NCBI GenBank assembly: GCA_947561715.1
Contig: OX387197.1
Location: 15,187,001-15,251,000, forward strand
DNA from: Ascidia mentula
Lineage: Eukaryota; Chordata; Ascidiacea; Phlebobranchia; Ascidiidae
Length of the DNA stretch: 64,000 nt
Direction of reading: 5' to 3'
Shown here: positions 23,404 to 64,000 of the stretch, piece by piece
Numbering within the stretch: the stretch's first letter is position 1
Layout of the letters: every line of letters starts with the position of its first letter
Translations under genes and position numbers: made by a program
Notes under the pieces: model-generated
Databases searched by the model: none
Seen by the model: the letters and a program-made list of their open reading frames with translations, nothing else
What the model was told of the DNA's origin: nothing

Positions 23404-25360
23404 TGTCTAAGTTTTAGTTGGGGAAGAAGCCATGGGATAGAAATAGAATCAAAAGCTTTTTGGAAATCAAGTGAAATGAAGAAAGAGTGCGAATTTATTA
23501 AGGAGGTGTGATAATAAAGGTCGCGAAGGAGGGAAGTGGGGTCAGATGTTGAGTTACCGGGTGTGGAGAATTGGTTTTGGGAGAGAATTGAAGAGATGAA
23601 GGGTTTCATGCGGAGGTTGAGGATCTTGTGGAGTCTGTATTGAGGAGGGAAATTGGCCGGTAGTTATTCAAGAGGGTCGGGTCGCTTTTTTTATGGATAA
23701 GGGTGAGGTGTCCAATGTTAAATTCCAGGGGGGTACATGCATTAAGGTAGGAGTAGATTAAGGTAGGAGAGGGTGCGTATATATTAACTAAGTGAAAGTT
23801 GTGGGTCAGGGTTGATATATCGGCCGCAATAATGCGACCGTCAGAGTCAGAAGTTGAATTAAGAATTCGGAGGCTGGAGGAGTTTAGAAGAACTGCGACA
23901 CCCCCGTAGGCAGAGCCTTTTAGAGGTGCCGAGTTTAAGGGGATTGGGCCGGAATGGACTTCCTTAGGGATTCGGTGGTAGAGTGAGTTTCTTGGAGGCA
24001 AAAAAGGTCAAAGTTCAAAGAGGAAAGGTACCGAAATAGGGCCCTTCTCTTGGTTGCCTGGCCTAAGCCGTTAACGTTCAGAGTGCAAATGCGTAGATAA
24101 GAAATTGGCGCCATTATAAAAACAAAATAAAAACGAAGTCACGTGGTCAGTGGGGTTATTTTAAAAACAGGTGGAATTAAAGTCGTCCGATATATTCGCT
24201 TTACAACTACAAACAACTTTTTCTCCGGGCAAAAGATTGTAAACCGCGCGGGCGTTGGGGCGCGCGTGAGTGACGCCTCTGGAGACTTCACGCCCCTTTG
24301 TGTGACGTCAGCCGTCACGGTCGGGGGCGCACGGTCCGCAGCTGATGTTTTGCGCTTGCTCGCTATGACGTCAGCCGTCACAGTCAATGGTTCAGCACTT
24401 GCGACAACAGCTGTCGCGTTGCCGGTTTCACCTGGCGCGCTCTTATCAGTGGCGCCAGGTGTAACATCTGGCACATGCAGGTGCACAGATGGTGTGACCT
24501 CAGCGGTGGCTTGCATATTTTGCATTTTTTTGGCTGGCCGTTGTATTTTATCTCGACCACGTTCTTGCCAAGTCGAACCCGCTCTGGGATCGGGTTCTCT
24601 TTAAGCACAGACACTTTCATAATAATAATTTGCTTGCCTCCGTATAGGCCGCAATCGTCATTGGTTTTCCACCCTCTTAGTGTTGGGGCGTACTTGGCAA
24701 AATATGCGAGGAGCCCTTGCATTGGTATACGCGGGGGGACCTTGGTAAGTGTAACACATTCTTCATCTTCACATCTCGCGGTTGCGTAAACCGGCTTTCC
24801 GGTCGCTCGAAGTGCTATGGCGAATTCACGCGCCTTATCCTTGGTGGGGCAGTAAAACTTTACTCTGCCGTTAGAGAACTGCAACAGACCTTCTAGGAAG
24901 GTCCGCCAACGAATGTTATGTTGCCGCAGCAACGTTAAGATTTCGGGACGCTTCAGCCAGGGATTGAAACGGGCGTCCACTTACAAATTCTCGTCCGTGT
25001 CGAACGGACCTTTAGCTTGCACAGATCGGGCCGCCACACTGGGCCCGGCTACAGCTTTTGCAAAATTTATAACAGAGATATTGCAAAACAGAAAATTGGT
25101 GTGTCAAGTGACAAAGGACACACCCTGGCCGCTTGTCGCCTAACCTCTACTAAACAATACGAAATAGTGGCCCTAAAAAGGGCCGGGCTGACTAAACAAG
25201 CGACCTCAAGAATCTCCTCCAAACTCATTCACAGCTGACAATTACGTTTCAAAAGAAGTTCCAAAAATAAACTGGTAAATCCTTCCGATAACTGCTTTGA
25301 ACAACTTGCAAATGATTAAATAGAGAAAATAGCTTGTCGAAACAGTAGGTAACTCACGTA
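23404..25360 (-). mobile_element. LINE copy E3, internally deleted, 5' end in an SL gene
   Basis: The 5' end (about 25358) abuts an SL gene at the family junction. The 5' UTR includes the paired element at 25127-25205. ORF1 (about 25065-24130) has DARFNPWLKRPEILTLL, an RRM-like region and PKKCKICKPP, where the CCHC knuckle has been lost by a deletion. The initiator region is altered. ORF2 keeps its start (about 24110) and endonuclease up to NIYAPS, then jumps near 23740 to RT sequence (GHLTLIHKKSDPTLLNNYRP), and ends at PWLLPQLKLRH where E2 begins. Subfamily: closest to E7. Confidence 0.8.
25127..25205 (-). other. 5' UTR paired RNA element of E3
   Basis: GGTCGCTTG (plus 25205-25197 read on the minus strand) can pair with CAAGCGGCC (25135-25127), enclosing a GGCCCT-AAAA-AGGGCC-type hairpin. 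Same place relative to ORF1 as in E7 and E12. Confidence 0.6.
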
Positions 25361-25649
25361 CGATGCTTGCCTTATTCAAATAGATTGGGGGTCCGGGACA
25401 GAGGGGCAGGTTGGGCTTGTGGCTACTTTCGGTGCTTGCGCCGTCGTGGGCACTCGGAATGGCAATTTTCAACACCGAGTGCAGCGGGTATAATTACCAC
25501 GATGGCATCGACAAAAACAGTAGCCTATGTCTACCCCTGGACAGTAATGACATAAAGACAGTAATGGCATAATGAGCGCGAATCGGCACCGACGCAGCAA
25601 CGGCAGCAGGGGGTCTCTTGCCAAACGATTAAGTCAAAAAAGTAGCCCA
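25361..25649 (-). repeat. SL repeat remnant between E3 and E4
   Basis: This is one spacer of the SL array carrying two half genes. At 25361-25386 is a leader half, AATCTATTTGAATAAG, with donor GC instead of GT and an A-type upstream region. At 25631-25649 is the downstream half, TGGGCTACTTTTTTGACTT. E3 is inserted in the first gene, E4 in the second. The spacer is diverged from the perfect arrays at right, so these SL halves are old pseudogenes. Confidence 0.85.
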
Positions 25650-27828
25650 TTTCTATTTTATTCGGGCGGGCTAACAGCCGCTACCACGAATATCACACTA
25701 CGTTATAACTACACTGAAGTAGAAGAGGTATGTAGAGAGAGAGGGCGAAAAGTACAAATAGAAACAATAATAAAGTGTAGCGATACGAAAACAGGTACGA
25801 AAAGAAAAATACAATTGTAGACGACAAAGACAACGTACGGAAAAATGGGTACACAATTGCAGACGACAAAGGATTTTTAATACAATATTTGATTTGGTTG
25901 CCCGGGGAGTTGGATTTAATTAAAGGAACTGACGACGTCGGCCAAGACACCTTCGAGGTCGGCATTTGACCTGTTCCGTTGCAAAGTTAGGCGAAAGTGC
26001 ATAGTGCGTTTCAGGGTCCGGGTCAGGTGTTCGGGTATGTTAGTTAAAGGGCGGGAGTCATGCTTAATTCGGTTTCTTGTTTTCCAGATGGTGTGGGTGA
26101 GGGAGGTGTTTAGCAGAGCTACAAGGGTTGCGGAGTATGGATCGTTTGACAGGGGAGTTCTGGGGAAAGTTAAGTAAACGGGGGTATCGAAATATGCAAA
26201 TGTGTTATTGAGGAGGGAGTTCAGGGTGTTTTTAACAAGGGATAGAACGGGTTGTATCGCGGGACAGGTATGAAAAAGGTGTGTAAATGTTTCCAGGGGG
26301 TAGTTGCAGAGGTGTCACTGGGGGGAAAGATAGGACTTCTGGCATTTCAGGGGGAGGATTTTATGTACTAGTCGATAATTGAACGTTTTGAGGTAGTTGG
26401 GGAAGATGGGGTGGTGGATCTGTGACTAGTCTGTGTGTGTGAATGGGTGCTGGGAATCGTTTGTTATGCGGGTATAGAGGGGTTTTGATTTGGGACAGAG
26501 TAATTCTTGTTCGGTTGGTTTGAAGGAATTTATAAGGGAGAGAATATATTGATAGTGAGTGGAGGGTGATGTGGCGTTGGGGAGGTTGTTTCTGATTCTT
26601 AGATTGTATAAATTTGATAGGGGGAGAGTTGGGGAGATGTTGGGGTGTCCAGTATACGGTGTTGACAGGAAAGAGAATGGATAGGTCAGCGTAGAGGGGT
26701 GCATTCGCCGCGCCGTAACCACCAAGGTCACGGCGGGCTGCCAGGATGTTGATGGGCAGAGTTGGTAGATTTGGGCCTCCGACAAAGCTTGCCACAATGC
26801 CGTCGACCCGCTCTCGTTGCTGGGGTGGTAGGGGGTAAATTTTAGCCAAGTAAGAAATTTCGAGTAAAGTAAAGTTTTGGAGAGAATGCATTTTGAATCG
26901 AAAGTGCCACCGCCGACTCGCTCTTATCTTTAACTTGCTGTTATTCAGCACCTGCGTCTCTGGCTGCAGGTGCAGCAGCTTTTCGCTCTTGCACGTGACT
27001 GGCAAAGCTTGGGCATTCTCTTTTGACGTGGCCCATTTCGTGACAAAAATCACACTTCTTGGGCTGTCCTTCGTATGTTACTTTGATCGTTTTTTTGCCC
27101 AGACGCAGGCGCTCGGGAATATGGTTCTGGGCCAGAACTGAGCTCTTCATTAATATTACGCGTTTGCCACCATACACGCTTTCTTCATCGTACACCTTCC
27201 ACCCCTTTTTAACTGGGGCGAACTTCGACATGAAGTTTAGTAATGCCGCCATTTTGATGCGTGGGTGAACTTTAGATAAGAACATCCGAATTTCATCATC
27301 ACAGTGGGCGTAGACTGCTTTCCCACTGGCTCTGATAGTGGCTGCGAGCTCCTTAGCCTTCTCTGCGGAAGCGCAGTTAAACACGACTTTCCCGTTCGGG
27401 TAAGGGATAACGCACTCTAAAGCCCGAATGGTCACTTTCAGTTCCTTCAAGAGCTTGTAAAGTTCTGCTTTCTCGAGCCCAAGGTTAAAACGGGCTTCCA
27501 CGTCAAGATTTGGGTCGGTTTCGAATAGATCGACCGCTGGCACAATTCCGGCCGAAACAACAGGCCGGGAAGCTAACGCTTGCGCGTAGTTTACTTTTGC
27601 TGGGTTTTGTGCGTCTCCACAAATAACGCTCGGCCACTGGCAGCTCACCTCTCCTCTCAAAACAAAAGCAGCCCTTACAAGGGCTGGGCTGGCTTTGCTC
27701 AGTGGCCTCAATCAGTCTGTCACAACAGATCATAAATCAGAAAACTAAGACGAAAACTTGAAAACTGAATATTCACTGCTGATTGATAGACTCGAAATAA
27801 ATTGCTGTATAGCTATAATATAGCAATA
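25650..27828 (-). mobile_element. LINE copy E4, internally deleted, 3' end in an SL gene
   Basis: The 3' end reads GGCTGTTAGCC (hairpin), CCGAATAAAATA, a four-base filler GAAA, then SL sequence TGGGCTAC. ORF1 (about 27600-26945) begins after VNYAQALASRPVVSAGIVPA and includes DLFETDPNLDVEARF, an RRM-like region and the knuckle CDFCHEMGHVKREC. Soon after the knuckle, near 26910, it jumps to ORF2 downstream of the RT catalytic core (FRFKMHSLQNFTLLEISYLA, then KIYPLPPQQRERVDGIV), so endonuclease and RT motifs are missing. The C-terminal ORF2 part (26900-25930) is frame-shifted in several places. The 5' UTR has the paired element (27632-27707) and at 27828 runs into the broken RT of the next copy. 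Confidence 0.8.
27632..27707 (-). other. 5' UTR paired RNA element of E4
   Basis: GGCCACTG (27707-27700) pairs with CAGTGGCC (27639-27632) around a CAGCCC/GGGCTG hairpin. Both arms differ from E12 and E7 in a matched way. Confidence 0.65.
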
Positions 27829-33264: not shown

Positions 33265-33542
33265 GTGATGCTTACTGTGTTCAAACAGAATGGGGGTCCG
33301 GGGCGAAGGGGCAGGTTGGGCTTGTGGCTACTTTCGGTGCTTGCGCCGTCGCGGGCACTCGGAACGGCGATTTTTAAAACCAAGTGCAGCGGGTGGGGTG
33401 TAATTACCACGGTGGCATCGACAAAAACGGTATGCCTGCCCCTGGACAGTAATGAGGCATAATGAGCGCGAGTCGGCACCGACGCGGCAACGACAGCAGG
33501 GGGTCTCTTGTTGCCAAACGATTAAGTCAAAAAAGTAGCCCA
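33265..33542 (-). repeat. SL repeat remnant between E6 and E7
   Basis: At 33265-33291 is the leader half of an SL-A gene (ATTCTGTTTGAACACA then GTAAGCATCAC), whose last exon bases are altered. At 33525-33542 is the downstream half of an SL-B gene (TGGGCTACTTTTTTGACT). One array spacer separates them. E6 is inserted in the first, E7 in the second, both at the family site. Confidence 0.88.
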
Positions 33543-33679
33543 TTAATATTTTATTCGGGGCACCTGATTGTCCCCACGAAAATCGGACGAGTTAACAAGG
33601 AAAGATACAACAATAAAAAAAAAACACACTATATAAATTTAAACTGTGAGGAGAATTGTCGGCAAAAAGTGCCATCTGG

Positions 33680-39347: not shown

Positions 39348-39740
39348 TCAAGTATCTCCTCCAAACACATTCACAGCTGACAATTTAGTTTCAAAAGAAG
39401 TTCCAAAAAATAAACTGGTAAATTCTTCCGATAACTGCCCTGAACAACTTGTAAATGATTAAATAGAGAAAATATTTTTTTTTTTTTTTTTTATATTTTA
39501 TTCGGGCACTTTAAAGGTGCCCAGCGAGTAACGAAAAAACGATAAACAACAGAAACTAGCGCAAACAAAGGATAGATACAGTATTTACAGATATTTACAG
39601 GAAGAGAGCGCGACATAAAAGAGGAGAATTACACTATTATTGTTATTATTATGGAAGAGAACGCAAGTAAAGAGGAGAGTTACACTGTTAACTGGGAGAG
39701 GAAGAAAGCGCTAAAAAGGGGTACACTCTGTGGGGTCCTG

Positions 39741-44366: not shown

Positions 44367-44640
44367 TCTTTCTTTTTTTTTATTTTTTTATTCGGGCAAC
44401 GTAAATAACGACCACGAATTAAAGCAACAGGCGTAATAAACTGAGCGGTTAAAGTTTAACTGAGGTGGGAGACGGCGTAAAAATAAAGGTCTGGACACTA
44501 ACGGAATTGCGATAAAGCGCGAATAAACGATTGTGTTAAATCACAATGTTGTATTGTAGTCCTCCGGGATTTTGATTCCACAAGGGCATGCAACTCTGGC
44601 GGTCGCATAGAAACGGCCACAGTTGCAACGGATCACTGAA
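44367..44640 (-). mobile_element. LINE fragment E9: ORF1 tail plus 3' UTR and poly(A)
   Basis: The minus strand reads IRCNCGRFYATARVACPCGI then KIPEDYNTTL and a stop near 44545, the cysteine-rich end of an ORF1, followed directly by about 150 bases of 3' UTR, CCCGAATAAA and a mixed poly(A). No ORF2 is present, so it is a deletion derivative or a truncated copy of an ORF1-only element. Its left neighbour is the ORF1 start of E8. Immediately upstream, TTTTTTTTTCAG resembles a splice acceptor. Confidence 0.65.
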
Positions 44641-48315: not shown

Positions 48316-48344
<29 letters not shown>

Positions 48345-51300: not shown

Positions 51301-51990
51301 ACAATTACTAGGTCATGGTCTGAAAAGGGACAAGGGATGAAGGAATGTTGTTTAGGGATTAAAGAGGGAGTTAGGTAAATTCTATCTATTCTTGATTGGG
51401 AATTAGTGGCGCGGCGGGAGAATTGACGTGAGGTTGGGTGGAGGGTGCGGAAGGAGTCGTGAAGGTCGAGGGTGGCTAATAGTTTAATTAAGGTGTGACT
51501 AGTATGGCGGGTCTGTACGGGGGGGTGTTTATCAAGGGCTGGGTTGAGGACGCAGTTAAAATCTCCGGCAAAAATTGAGGGGTGATTTGAGGTTAGGTAA
51601 GGGTAAAGGGAGTCAAAAAAATTATTGTTTTGTGTGTGGTTATTCTTTCCGGAGGGGGCATAAATATTTACAAGGTGAAAGGTATGGGTGAGGGTTGAGA
51701 TGTCGGCTGCAATAATGCGGCCGGCAGAGTCAGAAACTGAAGTGAGAATTTGAAGGTTGGAGGAGTTTAGAAGAACTGCGACACCTCCTGAGGCAGAGCC
51801 TTTCAGAGGTGCCGAGTTTAAGAGGATGGGGCCGGAAGTCCATTCAGACTTCCAGAGGGATTCGGTTTGGGGAGTAGAGTGAGTTTCTTGAAGACAATAA
51901 AGGTCAAAGTTCAAAGAGGAAAGGTACCGGAACAGGGCTTTTCTCTTAGGTGCTTGGCCTAGGCCGTTAACATTTAAAGTGCACAGACGG
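48316..51990 (-). mobile_element. LINE copy E11, ORF2 only, poly(A)-ended
   Basis: The 3' end (CGCGCCCAAATAAA then about 28 A) abuts E10. The 3' UTR is short (48350-48569). ORF2 is uninterrupted. At 51990 the copy is cut near the ORF2 start and joined to the upstream region of an SL-B repeat, about 30 bases before the leader start position. ORF1 and 5' UTR are absent, so this is a 5'-truncated insertion. Confidence 0.85.
48570..51990 (-). CDS. LINE ORF2 protein of E11 (endonuclease-reverse transcriptase)
   Basis: About 1,139 open codons belong to the LINE. The APE endonuclease opens with RLCTLNVNGLGQAPKRKALF and has LQETHSTPQTESLWKSEW, FAGDFNCVLNPALDKHP, SRIDRIYLTPSLIPKQHSF and CPFSDHDLVIVTLNL. 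The RT has NYRPISLLNTDLKILHKILN, SLDFQKAFDSISFPWLS, RRGVRQGDPLSLNLFLIALD and AIAYADDVTLMVAHRHS. The C-terminal motif is CHFCAFPFETFTHLFHNC. The usual first nine or so residues are missing. The frame is open upstream for a further 45 codons of SL-repeat DNA to an ATG at 52124, giving a hybrid 1,184-codon frame whose N-terminus is not a LINE sequence. All catalytic motifs look intact. Confidence 0.88.
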
Positions 51991-52353
51991 CTTGTGGGTA
52001 ATTTTGCCGGTTGCCCCATCGCAGGCACTCGGACTGGCGACTTTGAACACTGAGTGCCGCGGTTGCAACCCCCATTTGCGTGGACAAGGAACTGTCCTGG
52101 ACAGCAACATGGCCTACTGAGCACAGCACGCGTGCTCTATGACGTAGACAATTTATATTGTGACAGAGGTCTACACGCTAGGACTTTCCCGCCTCTGCAA
52201 CTGACTTCCACAGAAATACCGACGTGTGGCTTGAAGTACGCAGCAGGAGGGATCCTGCTGGACGGTGCGACACGGCCTACGATGAGCGCGAATCGGCGGC
52301 CGCACGCGTCGGGGCAGCAACAGCAGGGGGCGCTCGCAAACGATTGAGTGGAA

Positions 52354-52399
52354 AAAGTGGCCCGAGCAGGGCGCGATGCTTACCTTATTCAAACAGAAT
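52354..52399 (-). ncRNA. SL RNA gene, SL-A type (1)
   Basis: The minus strand from 52399 reads leader ATTCTGTTTGAATAAG (16 nt), donor GTAAGCATCGC, hairpin GCCC-TGCTC-GGGC and the Sm-like CACTTTTTCC. It differs from the Ciona leader only by A to G at position 6. The 46-nt length is set by analogy with the Ciona SL RNA; the true 3' end is not visible. The product would donate the 16-nt capped leader to pre-mRNAs by trans-splicing. Confidence 0.8.
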
Positions 52400-52635
52400 G
52401 GGGGTCCGGGGCGAAGGGGCAGGTTGGGCTTGTGGCTACTTTCGGTGCTTGCGCCGTCGCGGGCACTCGGAACGGCGATTTTCAACACCGAGTGCAGCGG
52501 GTGTAATTACCACGGCGGGCGGCATCGACAAAAACGGTATGCCTGCCCCTGGACAGTAATGAGGCATAATGAGCGCGAGTCGGCACCGACGCAGCAACGG
52601 CAGCAGGGGGTCTCTCGCAAAACGATTAAGTCAAA

Positions 52636-52681
52636 AAAGTAGCCCAAGCAGGGCGTGATGCTTACCTTATTCAAATAGAAT
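52636..52681 (-). ncRNA. SL RNA gene, SL-B type (1)
   Basis: The minus strand from 52681 reads ATTCTATTTGAATAAG, identical to the published Ciona intestinalis SL, then GTAAGCATCAC, hairpin GCCC-TGCTT-GGGC and TACTTTTTTGA (Sm-like). Relative to SL-A the stem is kept and changes fall in the loop and flanks. The 3' end is set by analogy at 46 nt. Confidence 0.92.
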
Positions 52682-52698
52682 GCCGGTCCGTGGCAGGG

Positions 52699-52725
52699 GC
52701 ACAGCTTGGGCTTGTGGGTAATTTT
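52699..52725 (-). promoter_or_regulatory. Candidate SL gene proximal promoter element
   Basis: CACAAGCCCAAGCTG lies at -35 to -21 of SL-B and CCACAAGCCCAACCTG at the matching place of SL-A (52420-52435). It is one of the longest blocks conserved between the two upstream regions. SL genes are snRNA-like Pol II genes, so a proximal sequence element is expected in this general area; there is no TATA box. Further out, an inverted GCACTCGG..CCGAGTGC pair (about -75 to -110) is also shared. Confidence 0.4.
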
Positions 52726-53073
52726 GCCGGTTGCCCCATCGCAGGCACTCGGACTGGCGACTTTGAACACTGAGTGCCGCGGTTGCAACCCCCATTTGCG
52801 TGGACAAGGAACTGTCCTGGACAGCAACATGGCCTACTGAGCACAGCACGCGTGCTCTATGACGTAGACAATTTATATTGTGACAGAGGTCTACACGCTA
52901 GGACTTTCCCGCCTCTGCAACTGACTTCCACAGAAATACCGACGTGTGGCTTGAAGTACGCAGCAGGAGGGATCCTGCTGGACGGTGCGACACGGCCTAC
53001 GATGAGCGCGAATCGGCGGCCGCACGCGTCGGGGCAGCAACAGCAGGGGGCGCTCGCAAACGATTGAGTGGAA

Positions 53074-53119
53074 AAAGTGGCCCGAGCAGGGCGCGATGCT
53101 TACCTTATTCAAACAGAAT
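53074..53119 (-). ncRNA. SL RNA gene, SL-A type (2)
   Basis: Same sequence as SL-A copy 1, one 720-bp unit further; leader at 53104-53119. Confidence 0.8.
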
Positions 53120-53355
53120 GGGGGTCCGGGGCGAAGGGGCAGGTTGGGCTTGTGGCTACTTTCGGTGCTTGCGCCGTCGCGGGCACTCGGAACGGCGATT
53201 TTCAACACCGAGTGCAGCGGGTGTAATTACCACGGCGGGCGGCATCGACAAAAACGGTATGCCTGCCCCTGGACAGTAATGAGGCATAATGAGCGCGAGT
53301 CGGCACCGACGCAGCAACGGCAGCAGGGGGTCTCTCGCAAAACGATTAAGTCAAA

Positions 53356-53401
53356 AAAGTAGCCCAAGCAGGGCGTGATGCTTACCTTATTCAAATAGAA
53401 T
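53356..53401 (-). ncRNA. SL RNA gene, SL-B type (2)
   Basis: Identical to SL-B copy 1; leader at 53386-53401. Confidence 0.92.
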
Positions 53402-53793
53402 GCCGGTCCGTGGCAGGGGCACAGCTTGGGCTTGTGGGTAATTTTGCCGGTTGCCCCATCGCAGGCACTCGGACTGGCGACTTTGAACACTGAGTGCCGC
53501 GGTTGCAACCCCCATTTGCGTGGACAAGGAACTGTCCTGGACAGCAACATGGCCTACTGAGCACAGCACGCGTGCTCTATGACGTAGACAATTTATATTG
53601 TGACAGAGGTCTACACGCTAGGACTTTCCCGCCTCTGCAACTGACTTCCACAGAAATACCGACGTGTGGCTTGAAGTACGCAGCAGGAGGGATCCTGCTG
53701 GACGGTGCGACACGGCCTACGATGAGCGCGAATCGGCGGCCGCACGCGTCGGGGCAGCAACAGCAGGGGGCGCTCGCAAACGATTGAGTGGAA

Positions 53794-53839
53794 AAAGTGG
53801 CCCGAGCAGGGCGCGATGCTTACCTTATTCAAACAGAAT
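53794..53839 (-). ncRNA. SL RNA gene, SL-A type (3)
   Basis: Leader at 53824-53839, identical to SL-A copy 1. Confidence 0.8.
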
Positions 53840-54075
53840 GGGGGTCCGGGGCGAAGGGGCAGGTTGGGCTTGTGGCTACTTTCGGTGCTTGCGCCGTCGC
53901 GGGCACTCGGAACGGCGATTTTCAACACCGAGTGCAGCGGGTGTAATTACCACGGCGGGCGGCATCGACAAAAACGGTATGCCTGCCCCTGGACAGTAAT
54001 GAGGCATAATGAGCGCGAGTCGGCACCGACGCAGCAACGGCAGCAGGGGGTCTCTCGCAAAACGATTAAGTCAAA

Positions 54076-54121
54076 AAAGTAGCCCAAGCAGGGCGTGATG
54101 CTTACCTTATTCAAATAGAAT
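54076..54121 (-). ncRNA. SL RNA gene, SL-B type (3)
   Basis: Leader at 54106-54121, identical to SL-B copy 1. Confidence 0.92.
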
Positions 54122-54513
54122 GCCGGTCCGTGGCAGGGGCACAGCTTGGGCTTGTGGGTAATTTTGCCGGTTGCCCCATCGCAGGCACTCGGACTGGCGA
54201 CTTTGAACACTGAGTGCCGCGGTTGCAACCCCCATTTGCGTGGACAAGGAACTGTCCTGGACAGCAACATGGCCTACTGAGCACAGCACGCGTGCTCTAT
54301 GACGTAGACAATTTATATTGTGACAGAGGTCTACACGCTAGGACTTTCCCGCCTCTGCAACTGACTTCCACAGAAATACCGACGTGTGGCTTGAAGTACG
54401 CAGCAGGAGGGATCCTGCTGGACGGTGCGACACGGCCTACGATGAGCGCGAATCGGCGGCCGCACGCGTCGGGGCAGCAACAGCAGGGGGCGCTCGCAAA
54501 CGATTGAGTGGAA

Positions 54514-54559
54514 AAAGTGGCCCGAGCAGGGCGCGATGCTTACCTTATTCAAACAGAAT
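54514..54559 (-). ncRNA. SL RNA gene, SL-A type (4)
   Basis: Leader at 54544-54559, identical to SL-A copy 1. Confidence 0.8.
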
Positions 54560-54795
54560 GGGGGTCCGGGGCGAAGGGGCAGGTTGGGCTTGTGGCTACT
54601 TTCGGTGCTTGCGCCGTCGCGGGCACTCGGAACGGCGATTTTCAACACCGAGTGCAGCGGGTGTAATTACCACGGCGGGCGGCATCGACAAAAACGGTAT
54701 GCCTGCCCCTGGACAGTAATGAGGCATAATGAGCGCGAGTCGGCACCGACGCAGCAACGGCAGCAGGGGGTCTCTCGCAAAACGATTAAGTCAAA

Positions 54796-54841
54796 AAAGT
54801 AGCCCAAGCAGGGCGTGATGCTTACCTTATTCAAATAGAAT
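54796..54841 (-). ncRNA. SL RNA gene, SL-B type (4)
   Basis: Leader at 54826-54841, identical to SL-B copy 1. Confidence 0.92.
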
Positions 54842-55233
54842 GCCGGTCCGTGGCAGGGGCACAGCTTGGGCTTGTGGGTAATTTTGCCGGTTGCCCCATC
54901 GCAGGCACTCGGACTGGCGACTTTGAACACTGAGTGCCGCGGTTGCAACCCCCATTTGCGTGGACAAGGAACTGTCCTGGACAGCAACATGGCCTACTGA
55001 GCACAGCACGCGTGCTCTATGACGTAGACAATTTATATTGTGACAGAGGTCTACACGCTAGGACTTTCCCGCCTCTGCAACTGACTTCCACAGAAATACC
55101 GACGTGTGGCTTGAAGTACGCAGCAGGAGGGATCCTGCTGGACGGTGCGACACGGCCTACGATGAGCGCGAATCGGCGGCCGCACGCGTCGGGGCAGCAA
55201 CAGCAGGGGGCGCTCGCAAACGATTGAGTGGAA

Positions 55234-55279
55234 AAAGTGGCCCGAGCAGGGCGCGATGCTTACCTTATTCAAACAGAAT
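55234..55279 (-). ncRNA. SL RNA gene, SL-A type (5)
   Basis: Leader at 55264-55279; last complete gene before the E12 insertion. Confidence 0.8.
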
Positions 55280-55508
55280 GGGGGTCCGGGGCGAAGGGGC
55301 AGGTTGGGCTTGTGGCTACTTTCGGTGCTTGCGCCGTCGCGGGCACTCGGAACGGCGATTTTCAACACCGAGTGCAGCGGGTGTAATTACCACGGCGGGC
55401 GGCATCGACAAAAACGGTATGCCTGCCCCTGGACAGTAATGAGGCATAATGAGCGCGAGTCGGCACCGACGCAGCAACGGCAGCAGGGGGTCTCTCGCAA
55501 AACGATTA

Positions 55509-55526
55509 AGTCAAAAAAGTAGCCCA
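55509..55526 (-). pseudogene. SL-B gene, downstream half split by E12
   Basis: TGGGCTACTTTTTTGACT follows the 3' end of E12. The matching leader half is at 61670-61694 on the other side. The eight bases GCCCTGCT normally between them are absent from both halves. Confidence 0.88.
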
Positions 55527-55531
55527 GGCAC

Positions 55532-55562
55532 TATTTTATTCGGGGCACATCCTGTCCCCACG
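55532..55562 (-). other. 3' terminal hairpin and tail of E12
   Basis: Minus strand: GGGGACAGGATGTGCCCC can fold (GGGG/CCCC, CA/TG, one bulged A), followed by GAATAAAATA. Equivalent hairpins with other sequences end E2, E4, E7 and E8. It may be the RT recognition site. Confidence 0.6.
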
Positions 55563-55674
55563 AATATCACATCAAAGTTGAACAAGGTAAAAGGAGAACG
55601 CAACGAATAAAAGAATGGGTTTGACAATACACAGCGAAAAACAGAAAACGCAAAACACATAAAAATAATCGCAT

Positions 55675-56180
55675 GGGGAGCTATTGACCCCTAGTGGTTG
55701 GTTTAGTGTAGTGTAACTGACCACGTGTTGGCGCAGCTCAATGGCGGGCGAAGGCAATAGTCATGAATGGCAACAGAAAGGAAAAGGAGCGTATCGGACT
55801 CTGTACCGACCCCTAGTGGTTAGTCTGGCGTGGTGTTACTGACCACGTGTATGCGCAATTTAATGGCGAGCGACAAGGGTGAACACGGATAATAACGCAA
55901 AAGGGAAAAAAGGGCAACGGGAATCCGTATCGACCCCTAGTGCTTAGTTTCTGATGTGGCTTAAGACCACTCGCGGCGTAATTAACTGACGAGCGTGTAA
56001 TAACGAGTGCGAGTACAGAAATAAAGGCACAATGGCGCACGCTTCCCAAAGTAGGTAGCGTCATCTAGTGGTAATTTTCTGGATATTTTCTAGTCCACGA
56101 GTGGGCGATAATGTACGAAGGGAAAAGACGCTAAATCGCGTGGCCAAGTTTAAAAATTTATGTTCCGCGAGTGGGCGCTT
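55675..56180. repeat. About 123-bp repeats in the E12 3' UTR
   Basis: Four imperfect units start near 55687, 55810, 55932 and 56055, sharing CCCTAGTGGTTGGT, GACCACGTGT and AATGGCGAGCG. Confidence 0.75.
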
Positions 56181-59100
56181 TTATGGGGTGTCGGTATGCG
56201 TGATGTTGAGCGTGTTTACGACATCGGCCAGGATTTCCTCGAGAAAGGGGTTGTCCCTATTTCGCTGGACAGCGAGTCTTAAGCGAAAGGAGGATTTGCA
56301 GGATGTTACTAAGTGGCTGGGTATGTCGTTGATGGGGCGTGTGTCGTGTTTAATTCTGTTGCGTGTTTTCCAGATAGTGTGTGTTAGTGCGGTGTTTAAC
56401 AGTGCTCCTAATGTTTTTGTGTAGGGTGTTGTGTTGTGAAGTTGTGGAAATGTGATGTGTAAAGGGGTGTCGAAAGGACAGGTGTTTAGGTCAGATAAAG
56501 TTCGAAAGATGCCGCGAACTAAGGTGAGCAGAGGTTGAATGGAAGGACAGTTGTGGAATAGGTGAGTAAAAGTTTCAAAGGGGAATTTGCACAGGTAGCA
56601 GTGGGGTTGTTGATCCAAAGGAAGGTACGATTTTTGACAGTTTAACGGAAGAATTTTATGTGTTAGCCGAAAATTAAAGGTTTTGAGATAGTTTGGAAAG
56701 ATTGGGTGGTGAATTTGGTGCCAGTCGTTAAAGGGATGTGGTGTGTTGGTTTCGTCGATGATCCGGAGATAGAGGGGTTTGAGTTTTTTGGTCATGAGCT
56801 CAGTTTCGGTGAGTTTGAAAGATTTGAGAAGATTGAGAATATGAAGATAGTGCGGAGAAGGTGTTGAAGCGTGTGGAAGAAAGTTTCTAGAACGAAGGTC
56901 AAAAAGTTTGCTAAGGGGAAGTCCAATGTTGTATTCTATAAAGGAAAGTTGTGGAGAGGTTGGGGATTCCAAAAGGCGGTGATTGTAATATTGCTTTATA
57001 GGAGAGAGAAGTGATAGGTCAGCGTAGAGGGGAATGTTTGCCGCGCCGTAACCGCCATGGTCACGACGGGCTGCCAGGATGTTGATTGGCAATGTTGGGT
57101 TGTTTGGGCCGACGACGAACTTTACCACAATGCCGTCGATCCGTTCTCGTTGCTGGGGAGATAAAGGGTAAGTTTTACCAAGGTAAGAAATTTGGGGCAG
57201 AAGTAAAGTTTTTGAGAGGATGCATTTAGAATCAAAGGTAAGAAACGGGTTGCTGATAGATTTGGCGCGGGATTGCAAAGAGGTAATTGTTTTGTGCCAT
57301 GTCGCGGTAATGTCTGATGGTGCGCCTATCGGGGTGTTTAACGGAGTTATCGATTTAGGGTTCCACTTTATATTACACAAGGTCGGGTCGTCCATGGGAG
57401 GTCGAAGGATGGCAATCGCTTCGGTTTTGGTGGGGTTTAGTTTTAATCCAGAAAATTTACCAAAATAATCAATGAGGCCGAGGGCTTTGGTGAGGGAATG
57501 CCGATGCGCCACCACTAGGGTGACGTCATCAGCGTAAGCGATTGCCTTGGGTGTGTTGCGGCATGGCACTGGGGTTGAGTCGATAGAAGAATTATTTTGA
57601 AGGGCAACGAGGAGCGGATCTAGGGCAATCAGGAAGAGGTTCAGACTAAGGGGGTCACCTTGTCTGACTCCTCTCCTGATGGGAAAGTCCCTTGTGGCAA
57701 ATCCGTTTATGAAGGCCCGGGAGTTGGCGCTAGAGTGAAGTGCAGAAAGGTAATTAGTAAAGCAAGTGGGAAAGCGTTTAAGAGTTAACTGGAGGAGTAG
57801 CCAAGAAAATGAAACAGAATCGAAGGCTTTTTGAAAATCGAGGGAAATGAAGTAAGTGTCCGAATTGATGGAGGAAGCGTGATGGTGGAGATCGCGTAGG
57901 AGAGAAGTTGCGTCGGTGGTGGAAGAGCCGGGGGTAGCGAATTGATTTGAAGAAAGAATTTCGGGTATGAAGGGTTTGAGTCTGAGATTTAGAAGTTTGT
58001 GAAGAATTTTAAGGTCCGTATTTAGAAGAGAGATTGGCCGGTAATTAGTTAGAAGAGTGGGGTCATTTTTTTTGAAGAGAAGGGTAAGATGTCCAAGGTT
58101 GTATTCTGAAGGGGTGTAGGAATTGAAATATGAAAAGTTAAGAGCTTGGGTGAGGTCGGCCCCGATGAGGTCCCAGTACAGCGAGTAAAACTCGCTGCTG
58201 AGACCGTCGGGACCGGGGGTTTTGCCGGAGGGAAAGAGGGAAAGAGTTTTTCTAATTTCGTGTTGCGTGATGGGATTTGATAAGGTTTCAGTGTGTTGGT
58301 CCGGAATTAATTTAAGGGGAATTTTAGCGAATAAATTAGAGGGGTCAGGTATTGGAAGGTTTTGATTAGAGTATAGAGTTTCGAAGAATTGCCGAGTGTG
58401 AGAAAGAAGTTCCTTGGGGGTAGAGAGAGGGAGGCCGTGGTCGTCTTGTAGTTCGAAGATGGGATTGTGAATTCGTGAGGGTAGTAATTCGGAGTAGAGT
58501 AATTTATCGGTAATGTTTTTAAAATGGGAGTCGGAGGAAAGAGATTTTAGAATAGAGTCACGGGATTTAGAAAGGTAGAGAGAATTTAGGGATTTTTTAA
58601 TAGATTGAAAGGAGCGAAAGTTTTCAGAAGAGGGATTGTCGTTGAGAATTTGGCGGGCGGTGTCGAGTTGTTGATGTAGGGTGTAGGTTTCTTCTCGGGA
58701 TTGTTTAGCCAAACGTTTCGAATGTGTTTTTATCAGGGATTGAAATTTAAATTTAAGTGTCAGCCAGAAATCCATGGGGTTAGAGTGTAAAGGAGCGAGA
58801 GTTTGCCAAAGAGGATAGAAGCGATGAAAGTCGAGACGGAAAAGAGGGTCGTTGAGAGTTTTCGTATTATTTTTCCATGTGCCACGGCCTCTGGGTGGAG
58901 AAGAGATAAGGTTAAGAAAGACCGAAACTGAGTCATGGTCCGAAAAGGGGCAAGGAGTAAAAAGATGATTGTTGGGAGATAATGAAGAGGAAAGGTAAAT
59001 ACGGTCTATTCTAGATTGAGAATTTGGGGCGCGGCGGGAAAATTGACGGAGATTTGGGTTTAAAAGCCGAAAGGAATCCTGTAAATTGAAAGTGGTTAGT

Positions 59101-59630
59101 AATTTTATGAGGTTATAGCTGGGTTGTCGATTGGGTAGTGATGGGTGTCTGTCTAAGGTAGGGTCGGTTACGCAATTAAAATCACCAGTAAAAACAATTG
59201 GGTGGGTAGAAGAGATATAGGGGTAGAGAGAGTCGAAGAATTTGTTATTGAATATGTAATTTTTTGTGCCGGAGGGTGCGTATATATTAACTAAGTGAAA
59301 GGTATGGGTCAGGGTTGATATATCGGCCGCAATAATGCGACCGTCAGAGTCAGAAGTTGAATTAAGAATTCGGAGGCTGGAGGAGTTTAGAAGAACTGCG
59401 ACACCCCCGTAGGCAGAGCCTTTTAGAGGTGCCGAGTTTAAGAGGATGGGGCCGTGGGTCCATTCGGACTTCCACAGGGATTCGGTATGGGGGGTAGAGT
59501 GAGTTTCTTGGAGACAAAAAAGGTCAAATTTCAAAGAGGAAAGGTACCGAAATAGGGCTCTTCTCTTGGAGGCTTGACCGATGCCGTTGACGTTCAGTGT
59601 ACATATGGACAGATAACTTGTCGGCGCCAT
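56181..59630 (-). CDS. LINE ORF2 protein of E12 (endonuclease-reverse transcriptase)
   Basis: A 1,149-residue protein from the ATG at 59630 (MAPTSYLSICTLNVNG), chosen because E7 starts at the same place; an in-frame ATG lies six codons upstream. The APE endonuclease occupies residues 1-240: N14, E42 in LQETHS, D150/N152 in TGDFNC, D209 in SRIDRIY and the terminal SDHD near 230. RT follows: NYRPISLLNTD (529-539), LDFQKAFD (597-604), RRGVRQGDPLSLNLF (652-666) and AYADDV (698-703). A C-X2-C-X8-H-X4-C motif (C1011, C1014, H1023, C1028) matches the L1-type C-terminus. The enzyme would nick the SL gene and copy element RNA in place. No stop or frame change is seen. Confidence 0.93.
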   Translation of the reverse strand: MAPTSYLSICTLNVNGIGQASKRRALFRYLSSLKFDLFCLQETHSTPHTESLWKSEWTHGPILLNSAPLKGSAYGGVAVLLNSSSLRILNSTSDSDGRIIAADISTLTHTFHLVNIYAPSGTKNYIFNNKFFDSLYPYISSTHPIVFTGDFNCVTDPTLDRHPSLPNRQPSYNLIKLLTTFNLQDSFRLLNPNLRQFSRRAPNSQSRIDRIYLSSSLSPNNHLFTPCPFSDHDSVSVFLNLISSPPRGRGTWKNNTKTLNDPLFRLDFHRFYPLWQTLAPLHSNPMDFWLTLKFKFQSLIKTHSKRLAKQSREETYTLHQQLDTARQILNDNPSSENFRSFQSIKKSLNSLYLSKSRDSILKSLSSDSHFKNITDKLLYSELLPSRIHNPIFELQDDHGLPLSTPKELLSHTRQFFETLYSNQNLPIPDPSNLFAKIPLKLIPDQHTETLSNPITQHEIRKTLSLFPSGKTPGPDGLSSEFYSLYWDLIGADLTQALNFSYFNSYTPSEYNLGHLTLLFKKNDPTLLTNYRPISLLNTDLKILHKLLNLRLKPFIPEILSSNQFATPGSSTTDATSLLRDLHHHASSINSDTYFISLDFQKAFDSVSFSWLLLQLTLKRFPTCFTNYLSALHSSANSRAFINGFATRDFPIRRGVRQGDPLSLNLFLIALDPLLVALQNNSSIDSTPVPCRNTPKAIAYADDVTLVVAHRHSLTKALGLIDYFGKFSGLKLNPTKTEAIAILRPPMDDPTLCNIKWNPKSITPLNTPIGAPSDITATWHKTITSLQSRAKSISNPFLTFDSKCILSKTLLLPQISYLGKTYPLSPQQRERIDGIVVKFVVGPNNPTLPINILAARRDHGGYGAANIPLYADLSLLSPIKQYYNHRLLESPTSPQLSFIEYNIGLPLSKLFDLRSRNFLPHASTPSPHYLHILNLLKSFKLTETELMTKKLKPLYLRIIDETNTPHPFNDWHQIHHPIFPNYLKTFNFRLTHKILPLNCQKSYLPLDQQPHCYLCKFPFETFTHLFHNCPSIQPLLTLVRGIFRTLSDLNTCPFDTPLHITFPQLHNTTPYTKTLGALLNTALTHTIWKTRNRIKHDTRPINDIPSHLVTSCKSSFRLRLAVQRNRDNPFLEEILADVVNTLNITHTDTP

Positions 59631-59721
59631 CATATACATAAAAAACAAAACATTGTGTTAAAGCAAATACAAAAAGTAAACGACCAAAAAAAATTTTGTT
59701 GCGTATCAATATGTGCGGTTT

Positions 59722-61407
59722 TTACAGTGTCGATGCATTAAAATCAGTGGGCAGCACGGTTCCGCATGAGCACCGTGCCACCTCTCCATGTTTAAGGTCG
59801 CGGAGAGATCCGCAGCTGCACGCAATTAATAGCCTGCGGCATGTTTTGTTGGTACAACGCGATGGGTTATAATAGTTTTTATCTGGAGCCCAGTTTCCGC
59901 AAGTACATTTGACATGGATGTCACCACAGAGGCATGTCATATTATTATACTTATTGTTTAGGGCGGAGCGGCAACATTTTGTACGCATTGTTTTCGGTGA
60001 CGTACCGCTTTTATGGCGTTTTATCACCTGGGTAAAGCCTTCCTCATCGGTTGTCGACGATTCCTTTCGATGCTTCGGCGTTGACGTCGCTGACGGGTTG
60101 GCGAACAGCTGGGCCAACGCGGAGTGTTGGGTGTGTTCGGGTGACGCAGGTTTGGTTGTGTTATCCACCGCGCCCTCGTGCGGCTTCTCGTTTGTGTTGG
60201 TGTTGTCGCCTGGTGAGACGGTTTGTTGCACGCACGTTGATGTGACGTCAGACGTCAACATGGGTATCTCGTCAGTTGTTACTGCGCCCGCGTCAGCTGT
60301 TGTTGCTCCCGCGTCGGCTGTTGTTGTTCCCACGTCATCGTCAGCTGTTGTTGCGCCCGCGTCAGCTGATGTTGTTGCTCCCGCGTCAGCTGTTGTTGTT
60401 GCGTGGGCGTTATCGCACGCCTCTAGCACCGTGCGGGGATCGTTGCGTTGCATCTCCTCGCTCGTTGCGGCAACCGACCCAGCGTCGGTTGCTTCTGGAG
60501 TCTTGCGGTGTTCGCCGCGCTGGTTCTTATCAGTAGTTGTAACAACCGACCCAGCGTCGGTTGCTTCTGCAGTCTTGCGGTGTTCGCCGCACTGCTCTTT
60601 ATCTCTCGTTGTAGCACCTGACACAACGTCGGGTGCTTCTGACGTCTTGCGGAGTTCACCGCACTGCTCTTTATTGGCTGTTGTAGCCACCGACCCGGCG
60701 TCGATGGCTTCTGACGTCTTCTCTATCTCTACGCTTTGCGCCTTATCGGCCTTGCTTCTCGCTGCTTCGCGTTTCGCAGCTGCAGCTGCTTGCTTTTCGG
60801 AAACTTCCTTACGAAAGCTTGGGCAGTCAACCTTGACATGTCCCATTTCGTGACAAAAATCACAACGTTTTGGCTGCCCGGGGTAGTCAACCTCAATTTG
60901 GTTGTTCGATAGGCGCAAGCGCTCTGGTATCGGATTCAATTTCAGTACCGACGCCTTCATATACATAACACGTCGGCCTCCGTAAACGTTATAATCATCA
61001 AACATCTTCCACCCGCGATAGACAGGGGCGTACTTTTTAAAGTAATCCATTAGGGCTGGCATTTTTATGGTTGGTGGAACTTTGTTCAGGAAAACCCTTA
61101 TTTCATCGTCGCAGCGAGCTGTAGCGAACACTGCTTTTTGGCTGTTTCGTAATGCGGCAGCCAAGTTGCGCGCCTTTTCCATTGTTGGAGTAAAGAATTT
61201 AACCCGTCCATTGGGGTAATTAAACAGCCCAGTTAGAGATAGTCGAACACTGACTTTCTCCTTCTTCAGAAGCGCATAAATTTCGGCGCGTTTGAGCCCG
61301 GGGTTAAAGCGAGCGTCAACTTCTAGGTTTTCGTCCGTCTTGAACGGATCCTCTGGCACAGATTGGGCCGGCACACTTGGCCCAGCTACAACACTGGCAT
61401 AGCTCAT
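59722..61407 (-). CDS. LINE ORF1 protein of E12
   Basis: 561 residues from ATG 61407 (MSYASVVAGPSVPAQSVPED); an upstream in-frame ATG at 61464 lies in the conserved UTR. Residues 30-175 form an RRM-like region (DARFNPGLKRAEIYALLKKE, then YGGRRVMYMKASVLKLNPIP). The CCHC knuckle is C182, C185, H190, C195. A linker then repeats a 23-24-residue unit four times (KTSEATDAGSVATT..KEQCGEHR), followed by an Asp/Ala/Thr run (ADAGATT). The tail (about 480-561) holds some 14 cysteines: CCRSALNNKYNNMTCLCGD, KCTCGNW, RCTNKTCRRLLIACSCG and RCSCGTVLPTDFN. Likely an RNA-binding chaperone of the element particle. The acidic repeats vary in number between copies. Confidence 0.92.
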   Translation of the reverse strand: MSYASVVAGPSVPAQSVPEDPFKTDENLEVDARFNPGLKRAEIYALLKKEKVSVRLSLTGLFNYPNGRVKFFTPTMEKARNLAAALRNSQKAVFATARCDDEIRVFLNKVPPTIKMPALMDYFKKYAPVYRGWKMFDDYNVYGGRRVMYMKASVLKLNPIPERLRLSNNQIEVDYPGQPKRCDFCHEMGHVKVDCPSFRKEVSEKQAAAAAKREAARSKADKAQSVEIEKTSEAIDAGSVATTANKEQCGELRKTSEAPDVVSGATTRDKEQCGEHRKTAEATDAGSVVTTTDKNQRGEHRKTPEATDAGSVAATSEEMQRNDPRTVLEACDNAHATTTADAGATTSADAGATTADDDVGTTTADAGATTADAGAVTTDEIPMLTSDVTSTCVQQTVSPGDNTNTNEKPHEGAVDNTTKPASPEHTQHSALAQLFANPSATSTPKHRKESSTTDEEGFTQVIKRHKSGTSPKTMRTKCCRSALNNKYNNMTCLCGDIHVKCTCGNWAPDKNYYNPSRCTNKTCRRLLIACSCGSLRDLKHGEVARCSCGTVLPTDFNASTL

Positions 61408-61447
61408 TCTGGCACAAAATTGTGTGTTCAAAAAACAGACACACACT
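61408..61447 (-). promoter_or_regulatory. Splice-acceptor-like sequence before ORF1 start
   Basis: The minus strand reads CTGTTTTTTGAACACACAAT, TTTGTGCCAG and then A-ATG: a pyrimidine stretch and CAG one base before the ORF1 ATG. E2 has TCTGTACCAG-AC-ATG in the same place. It could accept trans-splicing of the SL; E7 and E6 are less convincing. Confidence 0.3.
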
Positions 61448-61520
61448 GGTCGCTGGCAGATCACCTCTCCTACCTAAGGCAGCAGCCCTGAAAAGGGCCG
61501 GGCTAACTAACACAGCGACC
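61448..61520 (-). other. 5' UTR paired RNA element of E12
   Basis: GGTCGCTG (61520-61513) pairs with CAGCGACC (61455-61448) around a GCCC-TTTTCA-GGGC hairpin (61498-61485), 41 bases upstream of the ORF1 ATG. Confidence 0.65.
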
Positions 61521-61669
61521 GCAAGCCTCCTCAAGAATATCATAAACAAACAGGCAAATTGAGACTGAAAGCGGTTCCAAATAAATGTAAAGACTTCCAA
61601 AACTCTCCTCACGCAATTTGATTATTATGAAAAATGGCTAGGCTTGTAAATCGATAGAGTAACTCAGGT

Positions 61670-61694
61670 GTGATGCTTACTTTTCAAATAGAAT
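61670..61694 (-). pseudogene. SL-B gene, leader half split by E12
   Basis: ATTCTATTTGAA-AA-GTAAGCATCAC directly precedes the 5' end of E12. Two bases are missing around the exon-intron joint compared with intact SL-B. Confidence 0.88.
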
Positions 61695-62086
61695 GCCGGT
61701 CCGTGGCAGGGGCACAGCTTGGGCTTGTGGGTAATTTTGCCGGTTGCCCCATCGCAGGCACTCGGACTGGCGACTTTGAACACTGAGTGCCGCGGTTGCA
61801 ACCCCCATTTGCGTGGACAAGGAACTGTCCTGGACAGCAACATGGCCTACTGAGCACAGCACGCGTGCTCTATGACGTAGACAATTTATATTGTGACAGA
61901 GGTCTACACGCTAGGACTTTCCCGCCTCTGCAACTGACTTCCACAGAAATACCGACGTGTGGCTTGAAGTACGCAGCAGGAGGGATCCTGCTGGACGGTG
62001 CGACACGGCCTACGATGAGCGCGAATCGGCGGCCGCACGCGTCGGGGCAGCAACAGCAGGGGGCGCTCGCAAACGATTGAGTGGAA

Positions 62087-62132
62087 AAAGTGGCCCGAGC
62101 AGGGCGCGATGCTTACCTTATTCAAACAGAAT
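62087..62132 (-). ncRNA. SL RNA gene, SL-A type (6)
   Basis: Leader ATTCTGTTTGAATAAG at 62117-62132; first complete gene right of E12. Confidence 0.8.
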
Positions 62133-62368
62133 GGGGGTCCGGGGCGAAGGGGCAGGTTGGGCTTGTGGCTACTTTCGGTGCTTGCGCCGTCGCGGGCACT
62201 CGGAACGGCGATTTTCAACACCGAGTGCAGCGGGTGTAATTACCACGGCGGGCGGCATCGACAAAAACGGTATGCCTGCCCCTGGACAGTAATGAGGCAT
62301 AATGAGCGCGAGTCGGCACCGACGCAGCAACGGCAGCAGGGGGTCTCTCGCAAAACGATTAAGTCAAA

Positions 62369-62414
62369 AAAGTAGCCCAAGCAGGGCGTGATGCTTACCT
62401 TATTCAAATAGAAT
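62369..62414 (-). ncRNA. SL RNA gene, SL-B type (5)
   Basis: Canonical leader at 62399-62414. Confidence 0.92.
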
Positions 62415-62806
62415 GCCGGTCCGTGGCAGGGGCACAGCTTGGGCTTGTGGGTAATTTTGCCGGTTGCCCCATCGCAGGCACTCGGACTGGCGACTTTGAA
62501 CACTGAGTGCCGCGGTTGCAACCCCCATTTGCGTGGACAAGGAACTGTCCTGGACAGCAACATGGCCTACTGAGCACAGCACGCGTGCTCTATGACGTAG
62601 ACAATTTATATTGTGACAGAGGTCTACACGCTAGGACTTTCCCGCCTCTGCAACTGACTTCCACAGAAATACCGACGTGTGGCTTGAAGTACGCAGCAGG
62701 AGGGATCCTGCTGGACGGTGCGACACGGCCTACGATGAGCGCGAATCGGCGGCCGCACGCGTCGGGGCAGCAACAGCAGGGGGCGCTCGCAAACGATTGA
62801 GTGGAA

Positions 62807-62852
62807 AAAGTGGCCCGAGCAGGGCGCGATGCTTACCTTATTCAAACAGAAT
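62807..62852 (-). ncRNA. SL RNA gene, SL-A type (7)
   Basis: Leader at 62837-62852, as SL-A copy 1. Confidence 0.8.
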
Positions 62853-63088
62853 GGGGGTCCGGGGCGAAGGGGCAGGTTGGGCTTGTGGCTACTTTCGGTG
62901 CTTGCGCCGTCGCGGGCACTCGGAACGGCGATTTTCAACACCGAGTGCAGCGGGTGTAATTACCACGGCGGGCGGCATCGACAAAAACGGTATGCCTGCC
63001 CCTGGACAGTAATGAGGCATAATGAGCGCGAGTCGGCACCGACGCAGCAACGGCAGCAGGGGGTCTCTCGCAAAACGATTAAGTCAAA

Positions 63089-63134
63089 AAAGTAGCCCAA
63101 GCAGGGCGTGATGCTTACCTTATTCAAATAGAAT
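63089..63134 (-). ncRNA. SL RNA gene, SL-B type (6)
   Basis: Leader at 63119-63134, as SL-B copy 1. Confidence 0.92.
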
Positions 63135-63526
63135 GCCGGTCCGTGGCAGGGGCACAGCTTGGGCTTGTGGGTAATTTTGCCGGTTGCCCCATCGCAGGCA
63201 CTCGGACTGGCGACTTTGAACACTGAGTGCCGCGGTTGCAACCCCCATTTGCGTGGACAAGGAACTGTCCTGGACAGCAACATGGCCTACTGAGCACAGC
63301 ACGCGTGCTCTATGACGTAGACAATTTATATTGTGACAGAGGTCTACACGCTAGGACTTTCCCGCCTCTGCAACTGACTTCCACAGAAATACCGACGTGT
63401 GGCTTGAAGTACGCAGCAGGAGGGATCCTGCTGGACGGTGCGACACGGCCTACGATGAGCGCGAATCGGCGGCCGCACGCGTCGGGGCAGCAACAGCAGG
63501 GGGCGCTCGCAAACGATTGAGTGGAA

Positions 63527-63572
63527 AAAGTGGCCCGAGCAGGGCGCGATGCTTACCTTATTCAAACAGAAT
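63527..63572 (-). ncRNA. SL RNA gene, SL-A type (8)
   Basis: Leader at 63557-63572, as SL-A copy 1. Confidence 0.8.
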
Positions 63573-63808
63573 GGGGGTCCGGGGCGAAGGGGCAGGTTGG
63601 GCTTGTGGCTACTTTCGGTGCTTGCGCCGTCGCGGGCACTCGGAACGGCGATTTTCAACACCGAGTGCAGCGGGTGTAATTACCACGGCGGGCGGCATCG
63701 ACAAAAACGGTATGCCTGCCCCTGGACAGTAATGAGGCATAATGAGCGCGAGTCGGCACCGACGCAGCAACGGCAGCAGGGGGTCTCTCGCAAAACGATT
63801 AAGTCAAA

Positions 63809-63854
63809 AAAGTAGCCCAAGCAGGGCGTGATGCTTACCTTATTCAAATAGAAT
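63809..63854 (-). ncRNA. SL RNA gene, SL-B type (7)
   Basis: Leader at 63839-63854; last gene in the window. Confidence 0.92.
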
Positions 63855-64000
63855 GCCGGTCCGTGGCAGGGGCACAGCTTGGGCTTGTGGGTAATTTTGC
63901 CGGTTGCCCCATCGCAGGCACTCGGACTGGCGACTTTGAACACTGAGTGCCGCGGTTGCAACCCCCATTTGCGTGGACAAGGAACTGTCCTGGACAGCAA

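Follow-up and report, generated by a model that had tools for sequence, protein, structure and literature searches.

LINEs resident in spliced leader (SL) RNA genes are known from trypanosomatids (SLACS, CZAR, and CRE) and nematodes (NeSL) (PMC3636483, PMC2696322); they are described with a single ORF and a PD-(D/E)XK-like endonuclease that follows the reverse transcriptase (RT), the insertion of NeSL being accompanied by a deletion of target bases (PMC3636483). In the literature consulted, SL-gene LINEs carry restriction-like endonucleases, and APE-type target-specific LINEs belong to the Tx1 and R1 clades (PMC4640811, PMC3706591, PMC2696322, PMC8869645, PMC3636483, PMC4122922). Among the Tx1 members, Keno (U2), Mutsu (5S rRNA), and Dewa (tRNA-Leu) use an APE-derived endonuclease to enter multicopy small-RNA genes (PMC4640811, PMC3706591), and in sea squirts the target-preferring LINEs Utopia and YURE occur in Ciona (PMC4640811); the latter belong to the restriction-like endonuclease lineage and lie in U2 genes or U2-derived satellites, not in SL genes. 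No earlier report of an APE LINE in SL genes was found in the literature covered, most subscription journals and Repbase lying outside it. Here, E12, a LINE with two ORFs and an APE endonuclease, was found within an SL RNA gene, and we put at roughly 0.8 the probability that it belongs to an APE-type radiation that uses this gene as both landing site and promoter, by the five-step scheme set out below.

The window is the whole 64,000-nucleotide stretch analyzed (C1:15187001-15251000), within a genome of 195.8 Mb in 79 contigs. Its right part is occupied by an array of 720-bp repeat units, and every unit contains a pair of minus-strand SL genes, SL-B (ATTCTATTTGAATAAG followed by GTAAGCATCACGCCCTGCTTGGGCTAC) and SL-A (ATTCTGTTTGAATAAG followed by GTAAGCATCGCGCCCTGCTCGGGCCAC). 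The leader of SL-B is identical to the published 16-nt Ciona intestinalis SL (PMC7986045). A tunicate host is also weakly supported by two GH6 matches that barely exceed the cut-off, as compared with 0 of 14 controls. Predicted folds of the SL RNA contain a GCCC-loop-GGGC hairpin, with z scores of -0.64, -0.57, and -1.33 that do not clearly beat shuffled sequences, and no Rfam family reached its gathering score in positions 50001-64000 of the window. Many further relatives, often broken and at 64-88% nucleotide identity, lie in the window in the same orientation. At approximately 39473-39490, 44385-44400, and 48320-48345, poly(A) tails abut the 5' part of a following element, so that LINEs form head-to-tail chains.

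Table 1. Positions in the window of the SL arrays, of E12 with its parts, and of the element joints (a slash marks the splice donor or an element boundary)
Feature	Position	Strand	Remarks
SL array left of E12, 720-bp units, the first of them incomplete	51989..55526	minus	
SL array, continuation right of E12	61695..64000	minus	
Uninterrupted SL-B gene, example	54799..54841	minus	
E12 element including SL-derived leader	55527..61694	minus	Flanks identical to SL-B unit outside the leader; both joints recur genome-wide
E12 SL leader and intron start (5' joint), ATTCTATTTGAAAA/GTAAGCATCAC	61670..61694	minus	Splice donor altered; intact SL genes have AATAAG/GTAAGC
E12 ORF1, 561 aa	59722..61407	minus	Zinc knuckle and cysteine-rich C terminus
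E12 ORF2, 1155 aa as listed (first ATG at residue 4)	56181..59648	minus	APE endonuclease, reverse transcriptase, C-terminal CCHC
E12 3' end, CGAATAAAATAGTGCC	55527..55542	minus	Joint recurs genome-wide
Interrupted SL-B gene, start of 3' half (TGGGCTAC)	55519..55526	minus	
E12 3' joint, CGAATAAAATAGTGCC/TGGGCTAC	55519..55542	minus	
E7 3' joint, CGAATAAAATATTAA/TGGGCTAC	33535..33557	minus	In SL-B gene
E4 3' joint, CGAATAAAATAGAAA/TGGGCTAC	25642..25664	minus	In SL-B gene
E6 leader and 5' joint, ATTCTGTTTGAACACA GTAAGCATCAC	33265..33291	minus	Donor altered to ACACA/GT; SL-A-type unit
E3 leader and 5' joint, ATCTATTTGAATAAG GCAAGCATC	25357..25385	minus	Donor altered to AAG/GC

The ORF2 protein of E12 matches the Pfam models Exo_endo_phos (8.9e-15) and RVT_1 (7.2e-33) and contains the motifs NVNG, QETH, GDFN, SDHD, and YADD, with the APE residues preceding the RT, which bears out the proposal of the earlier note on this DNA that the endonuclease is of the APE and not the restriction-like type. 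The Pfam scan of E12 returned no restriction-like endonuclease. Residues 6-894 align to L1 ORF2, and the closest solved proteins, a comparison confined among LINEs to L1 and R2, are L1 ORF2 (best 1.6e-59) followed by R2 (9e-22). The APE type, together with the wide lead of L1 ORF2 over R2, indicates that E12 is not a CRE/NeSL-type element, and membership of CRE, SLACS, or NeSL was rejected on the order APE before RT, although insertion into SL genes is shared. Moreover, SLACS, CZAR, CRE, and NeSL have one ORF with the endonuclease after the RT and target the leader exon, whereas E12 has two ORFs with APE before RT and its group hits the SL intron. An N-terminal APE endonuclease followed by RT is the arrangement of APE-type LINEs, and its combination with a specific target is a feature of the Tx1 clade that R1-clade elements have too; the likeness of E12 to Keno, Mutsu, and Dewa, whose targets differ from the SL gene, is one of features. 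The model Exo_endo_phos_2, which we take to mark R1-type endonucleases, was matched only below the cut-off (1.7e-4). ORF1 matched nothing in Pfam above the cut-off, the L1-type Transposase_22 included, and its predicted structure (mean pLDDT 47) is too poor for judging the fold.

Comparison of the flanks confirmed that E12 splits one SL-B gene, with both halves present and only GCCCTGCT missing between them: the 300 nt of 3' flank are 100% identical to the adjacent SL-B unit and the 300 nt of 5' flank differ from it solely by two 1-nt deletions at the splice donor. The 3' ends of E12, E7, and E4 were likewise found, as had been claimed, directly before TGGGCTAC of an SL gene. A genome-wide search (196 Mb) for the joint pattern CGAATAAAATA-N(0-12)-TGGGCTAC, which is itself conditioned on the SL flank, gave 29 matches as compared with 0 for the reversed-pattern control, and these are located on C1 (15.21-16.02 Mb) and C71 (13.00-13.79 Mb), in two SL arrays that differ in sequence. 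The 4-5 nt between CGAATAAAATA and TGGGCTAC read GTGCC, GTATC, GAAA, GAAT, or TTAA; the earlier note had taken such bases as filler, but three family E copies at non-SL sites (L019, L021, and L030) also end in GAA, indicating that they are at least partly the element's own end.

Counts free of that conditioning cover family A, family E, and seven copies of family D, with family C outside them. All seven matches to the last 300 nt of E12 (≥96% identity) end at [T/C]GGGCTAC of an SL gene, so that unrelated flanks, which the earlier note had named as evidence against targeting, are not the rule among close copies of E12. The sequence GCCCGAATAAAATA occurs at 46 places. Judged by the 3' end, 25 of them are family E copies, 22 of which are inserted in SL genes; the remaining 21 have other 3' ends and none is at an SL gene. 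A poly(A) tail marks family D, whose joint lies 3-4 nt further upstream, with TGCTTGGGC following it on C1 and TGTCCGGGC on C71; four of its six readable 3' ends are in SL genes and two are not, the seventh copy (C13), in which the 3' flank is masked, having been excluded. The SL-site specificity of these LINEs is strong, but not absolute. Thus, targeting of the SL RNA gene at one site is supported genome-wide by recurring joints with controls of 0, whereas the single family originally claimed is in fact several (A, C, D, and E), with the joint of D shifted. At one non-SL copy (L086, C1:2.699 Mb) the 3' end is followed by CTATC, then by CGGGCTA, a 7-nt piece of the SL target beyond which the DNA is unrelated.

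At the other end of the elements, the 5' joints of E12, E6, and E3 do lie in SL genes, although the sequence they were said to share does not hold, E3 having GCAAGCATC instead of GTAAGCATC. E4 and E7 lie in SL-B genes; E3 and E6 lie in SL units next to these genes and not within them. The 5' joint pattern has 62 matches in the genome (reversed-pattern control, 0), and with 2 further leaders and 20 of a second type a total of 84 5' places was assembled. In the 57 of these that were read, a non-random sample in which informative-looking places came first and some were picked for lying outside arrays, the SL upstream region precedes the 5' end in 36 and other DNA in 21, the latter representing 16 distinct sites. 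Read by eye, 14 of these 16 start at SL +1 to +4 (+1 in eight, +2 in three, +3 in one, and +4 in two), with L111 and L175 ambiguous. Of six dispersed SL-leader copies tested, three are bordered by target duplications, which are 22 nt long in family E (C52), 19 nt on C71, and 12 nt in family D (C1), and three show none; the copy with the 22-nt duplication begins exactly at SL +1. The "+2 nt" boundary that had been proposed for the 5' end was not borne out as the element end, as copies elsewhere start at SL +1, and on this sequence evidence the 5' half of the SL gene is part of the element. Since copies inserted elsewhere begin there and retain intron bases, the element RNA evidently starts at SL +1, and the dispersed copies appear to derive from unspliced transcripts begun at the SL start rather than from trans-spliced mRNAs.

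The leader carried by the elements differs from that of intact SL genes at the splice donor. In uninterrupted SL genes matching the leader pattern, which does not cover SL-A genes with TGTTTGA, AATAAG/GTAAGC is found in 1,662 of 1,664 and the donor is altered in two, whereas the AG/GT donor is altered in 73 of 74 element leaders, either by GT to GC or by loss of the -1 G (AAAA, AATAA, ACACA, and AAACA). The sole element leader with an intact donor (L133, C71:13942391) sits in a degenerate SL unit. As most leaders are shared within families or by duplication these counts are not independent, and the donor may have changed separately only three or four times; where GT persists and the -1 G alone is lost, as in several altered donors, the donor may be weakened rather than dead. 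One explanation is drift, in which an SL gene already dead would no longer need its donor. Insertion deletes GCCCTGCT from the host gene, so that the copy is probably useless as an SL RNA, and a small number of changes shared by families fits such decay. However, the first 11 leader bases are kept in array copies with the changes sitting at the donor, families lost the donor in different ways (GC for GT or loss of the -1 G), and many copies have an open ORF2, which implies that the elements are young. Drift is consequently regarded as unlikely, though deserving of some weight, and selection on the donor is preferred. In the 16.9-17.9 Mb region of C70, approximately two dozen copies related to the 3' part of E12 carry SL-type leaders in which the donor is GC. 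L112 and L176 share identical 5' flanks, and this region is therefore probably an amplified segment.

The recurrence of the joints could also result from a few old SL-unit insertions multiplied by unequal crossing-over with no site-specific integration, as the earlier note had cautioned for duplication of one block. E12 and a copy 15.5 kb away are identical, flanks included, and the 33 SL-inserted 3' ends (L039-L067, L004, L005, L006, and L033) collapse to 27 groups when merged where both sides agree. These ends nevertheless comprise 10 element lineages (<95% identity) at the same joint, families A, E, and D are each present in both SL arrays (C1 and C71) although the array units differ, and the poly(A)-tailed family D joins 3-4 nt away. 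Block duplication was rejected as the sole cause and is very improbable as an account of the joints; homology-driven gene conversion could raise copy number within the arrays.

Template jumping makes chimeric LINE copies in other systems and could in principle add the leader anew at each insertion by a jump onto SL RNA, with no inheritance. It is given hardly any credence here, because leader variants are family-specific and common to the array and dispersed copies of a family, which argues that they travel with the element, and because, within each family, leader and element meet at a constant joint. Trans-splicing of LINE mRNA as the leader source, conceivable if the host, like Ciona, adds this SL exon to mRNAs (PMC7986045), was rejected with near certainty as the start of the SL intron (G[T/C]AAGCAT) is present in the dispersed copies but absent from trans-spliced mRNA.

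Inheritance of the SL leader by the element is the reading retained. The sizes of the element families are lower bounds, as 40 of 971 candidates were scored. Families A and B are sisters in the tree (support 92), with C outside and D and E further out on weaker deeper nodes (46 and 58). Family B (86-87% identity over ORF2; about 91% to A in the RT region) is dispersed, with at least seven copies with open ORF2 on C52, C67, C72, and C73. In five of seven copies its 5' end is TCTGGTTTCTCTTCACACGC or near it, with no SL leader, and the stretches of the other two stop short of the 5' end; five of the seven 3' stretches end in CTCGAATAAAATAATCG, one in poly(A), and one in another sequence. Both copies tested have target duplications, of 14 and 17 nt. 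The simplest reading of these sequences is that family B lost SL targeting, the alternative being repeated gain. With A bound to SL genes and B dispersed, the gain or loss of target specificity falls on a short branch, and the endonuclease changes behind specificity thereby become testable.

In the proposed scheme, insertion takes place at one position in the short SL intron, adjoining [T/C]GGGCTAC, as the junctions show. The ORF2 APE endonuclease would nick the bottom strand at this site and target-primed reverse transcription would begin. Transcription of the element would be driven by the SL promoter from SL +1, the start recorded in its DNA copies. At the end of the cDNA, the leader may then pair with the upstream SL gene to give the precise 5' joint, which would place the new copy again behind an SL promoter. 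The leader of E6 carries an SL-A-specific base yet an altered donor, and this single base fits a 5' joint formed by pairing within the leader. Finally, the altered donor may have been selected to spare the full-length RNA from splicing. It is also judged reasonably probable that a chordate LINE radiation with the SL gene as landing site and promoter carries the 5' end of the SL RNA as a component of its own, altered the donor more than once to escape splicing, and gave rise to a family B that dropped the leader and dispersed again.

This proposal has a parallel in R2, which lies in 28S rRNA genes and is co-transcribed with its target gene (PMC3636483). The R2 endonuclease is, in contrast to that of E12, restriction-like. 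A ribozyme releases R2 RNA from the rRNA; the E12 group, unlike R2, keeps the 5' end of the host gene on the element. We know of no altered host leader in Keno, Mutsu, or Dewa. The presence of an APE lineage in the same gene as LINEs with restriction-like endonucleases suggests that a multicopy, strongly used target was chosen convergently, and the element copies appear to record their own transcription start in DNA. Retention of the promoter and leader with an altered donor suggests a way for a LINE to live in a trans-splicing gene.

Several other loci have related features. On C52 (12.98-13.04 Mb), three poly(A)-tailed relatives (L022, L024, and L026) terminate immediately before the start codon of histone H3 or in the A-run there, and a fourth (L025) ends in the H2A 5' leader, as does L023 with another 3' end; these are possibly histone-gene-preferring sister LINEs. 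At C52:14.097 Mb (L029), a LINE 3' end is followed by sequence resembling the H2A 5' leader and then by a LINE-like 5' region, an arrangement that would suit a histone leader carried like the SL leader. Lastly, at C71:13789.4-13796.5 kb (L067 and L136), an altered SL leader, AAAACA/GTAAGCATC, precedes approximately 7 kb with no obvious LINE ORF.
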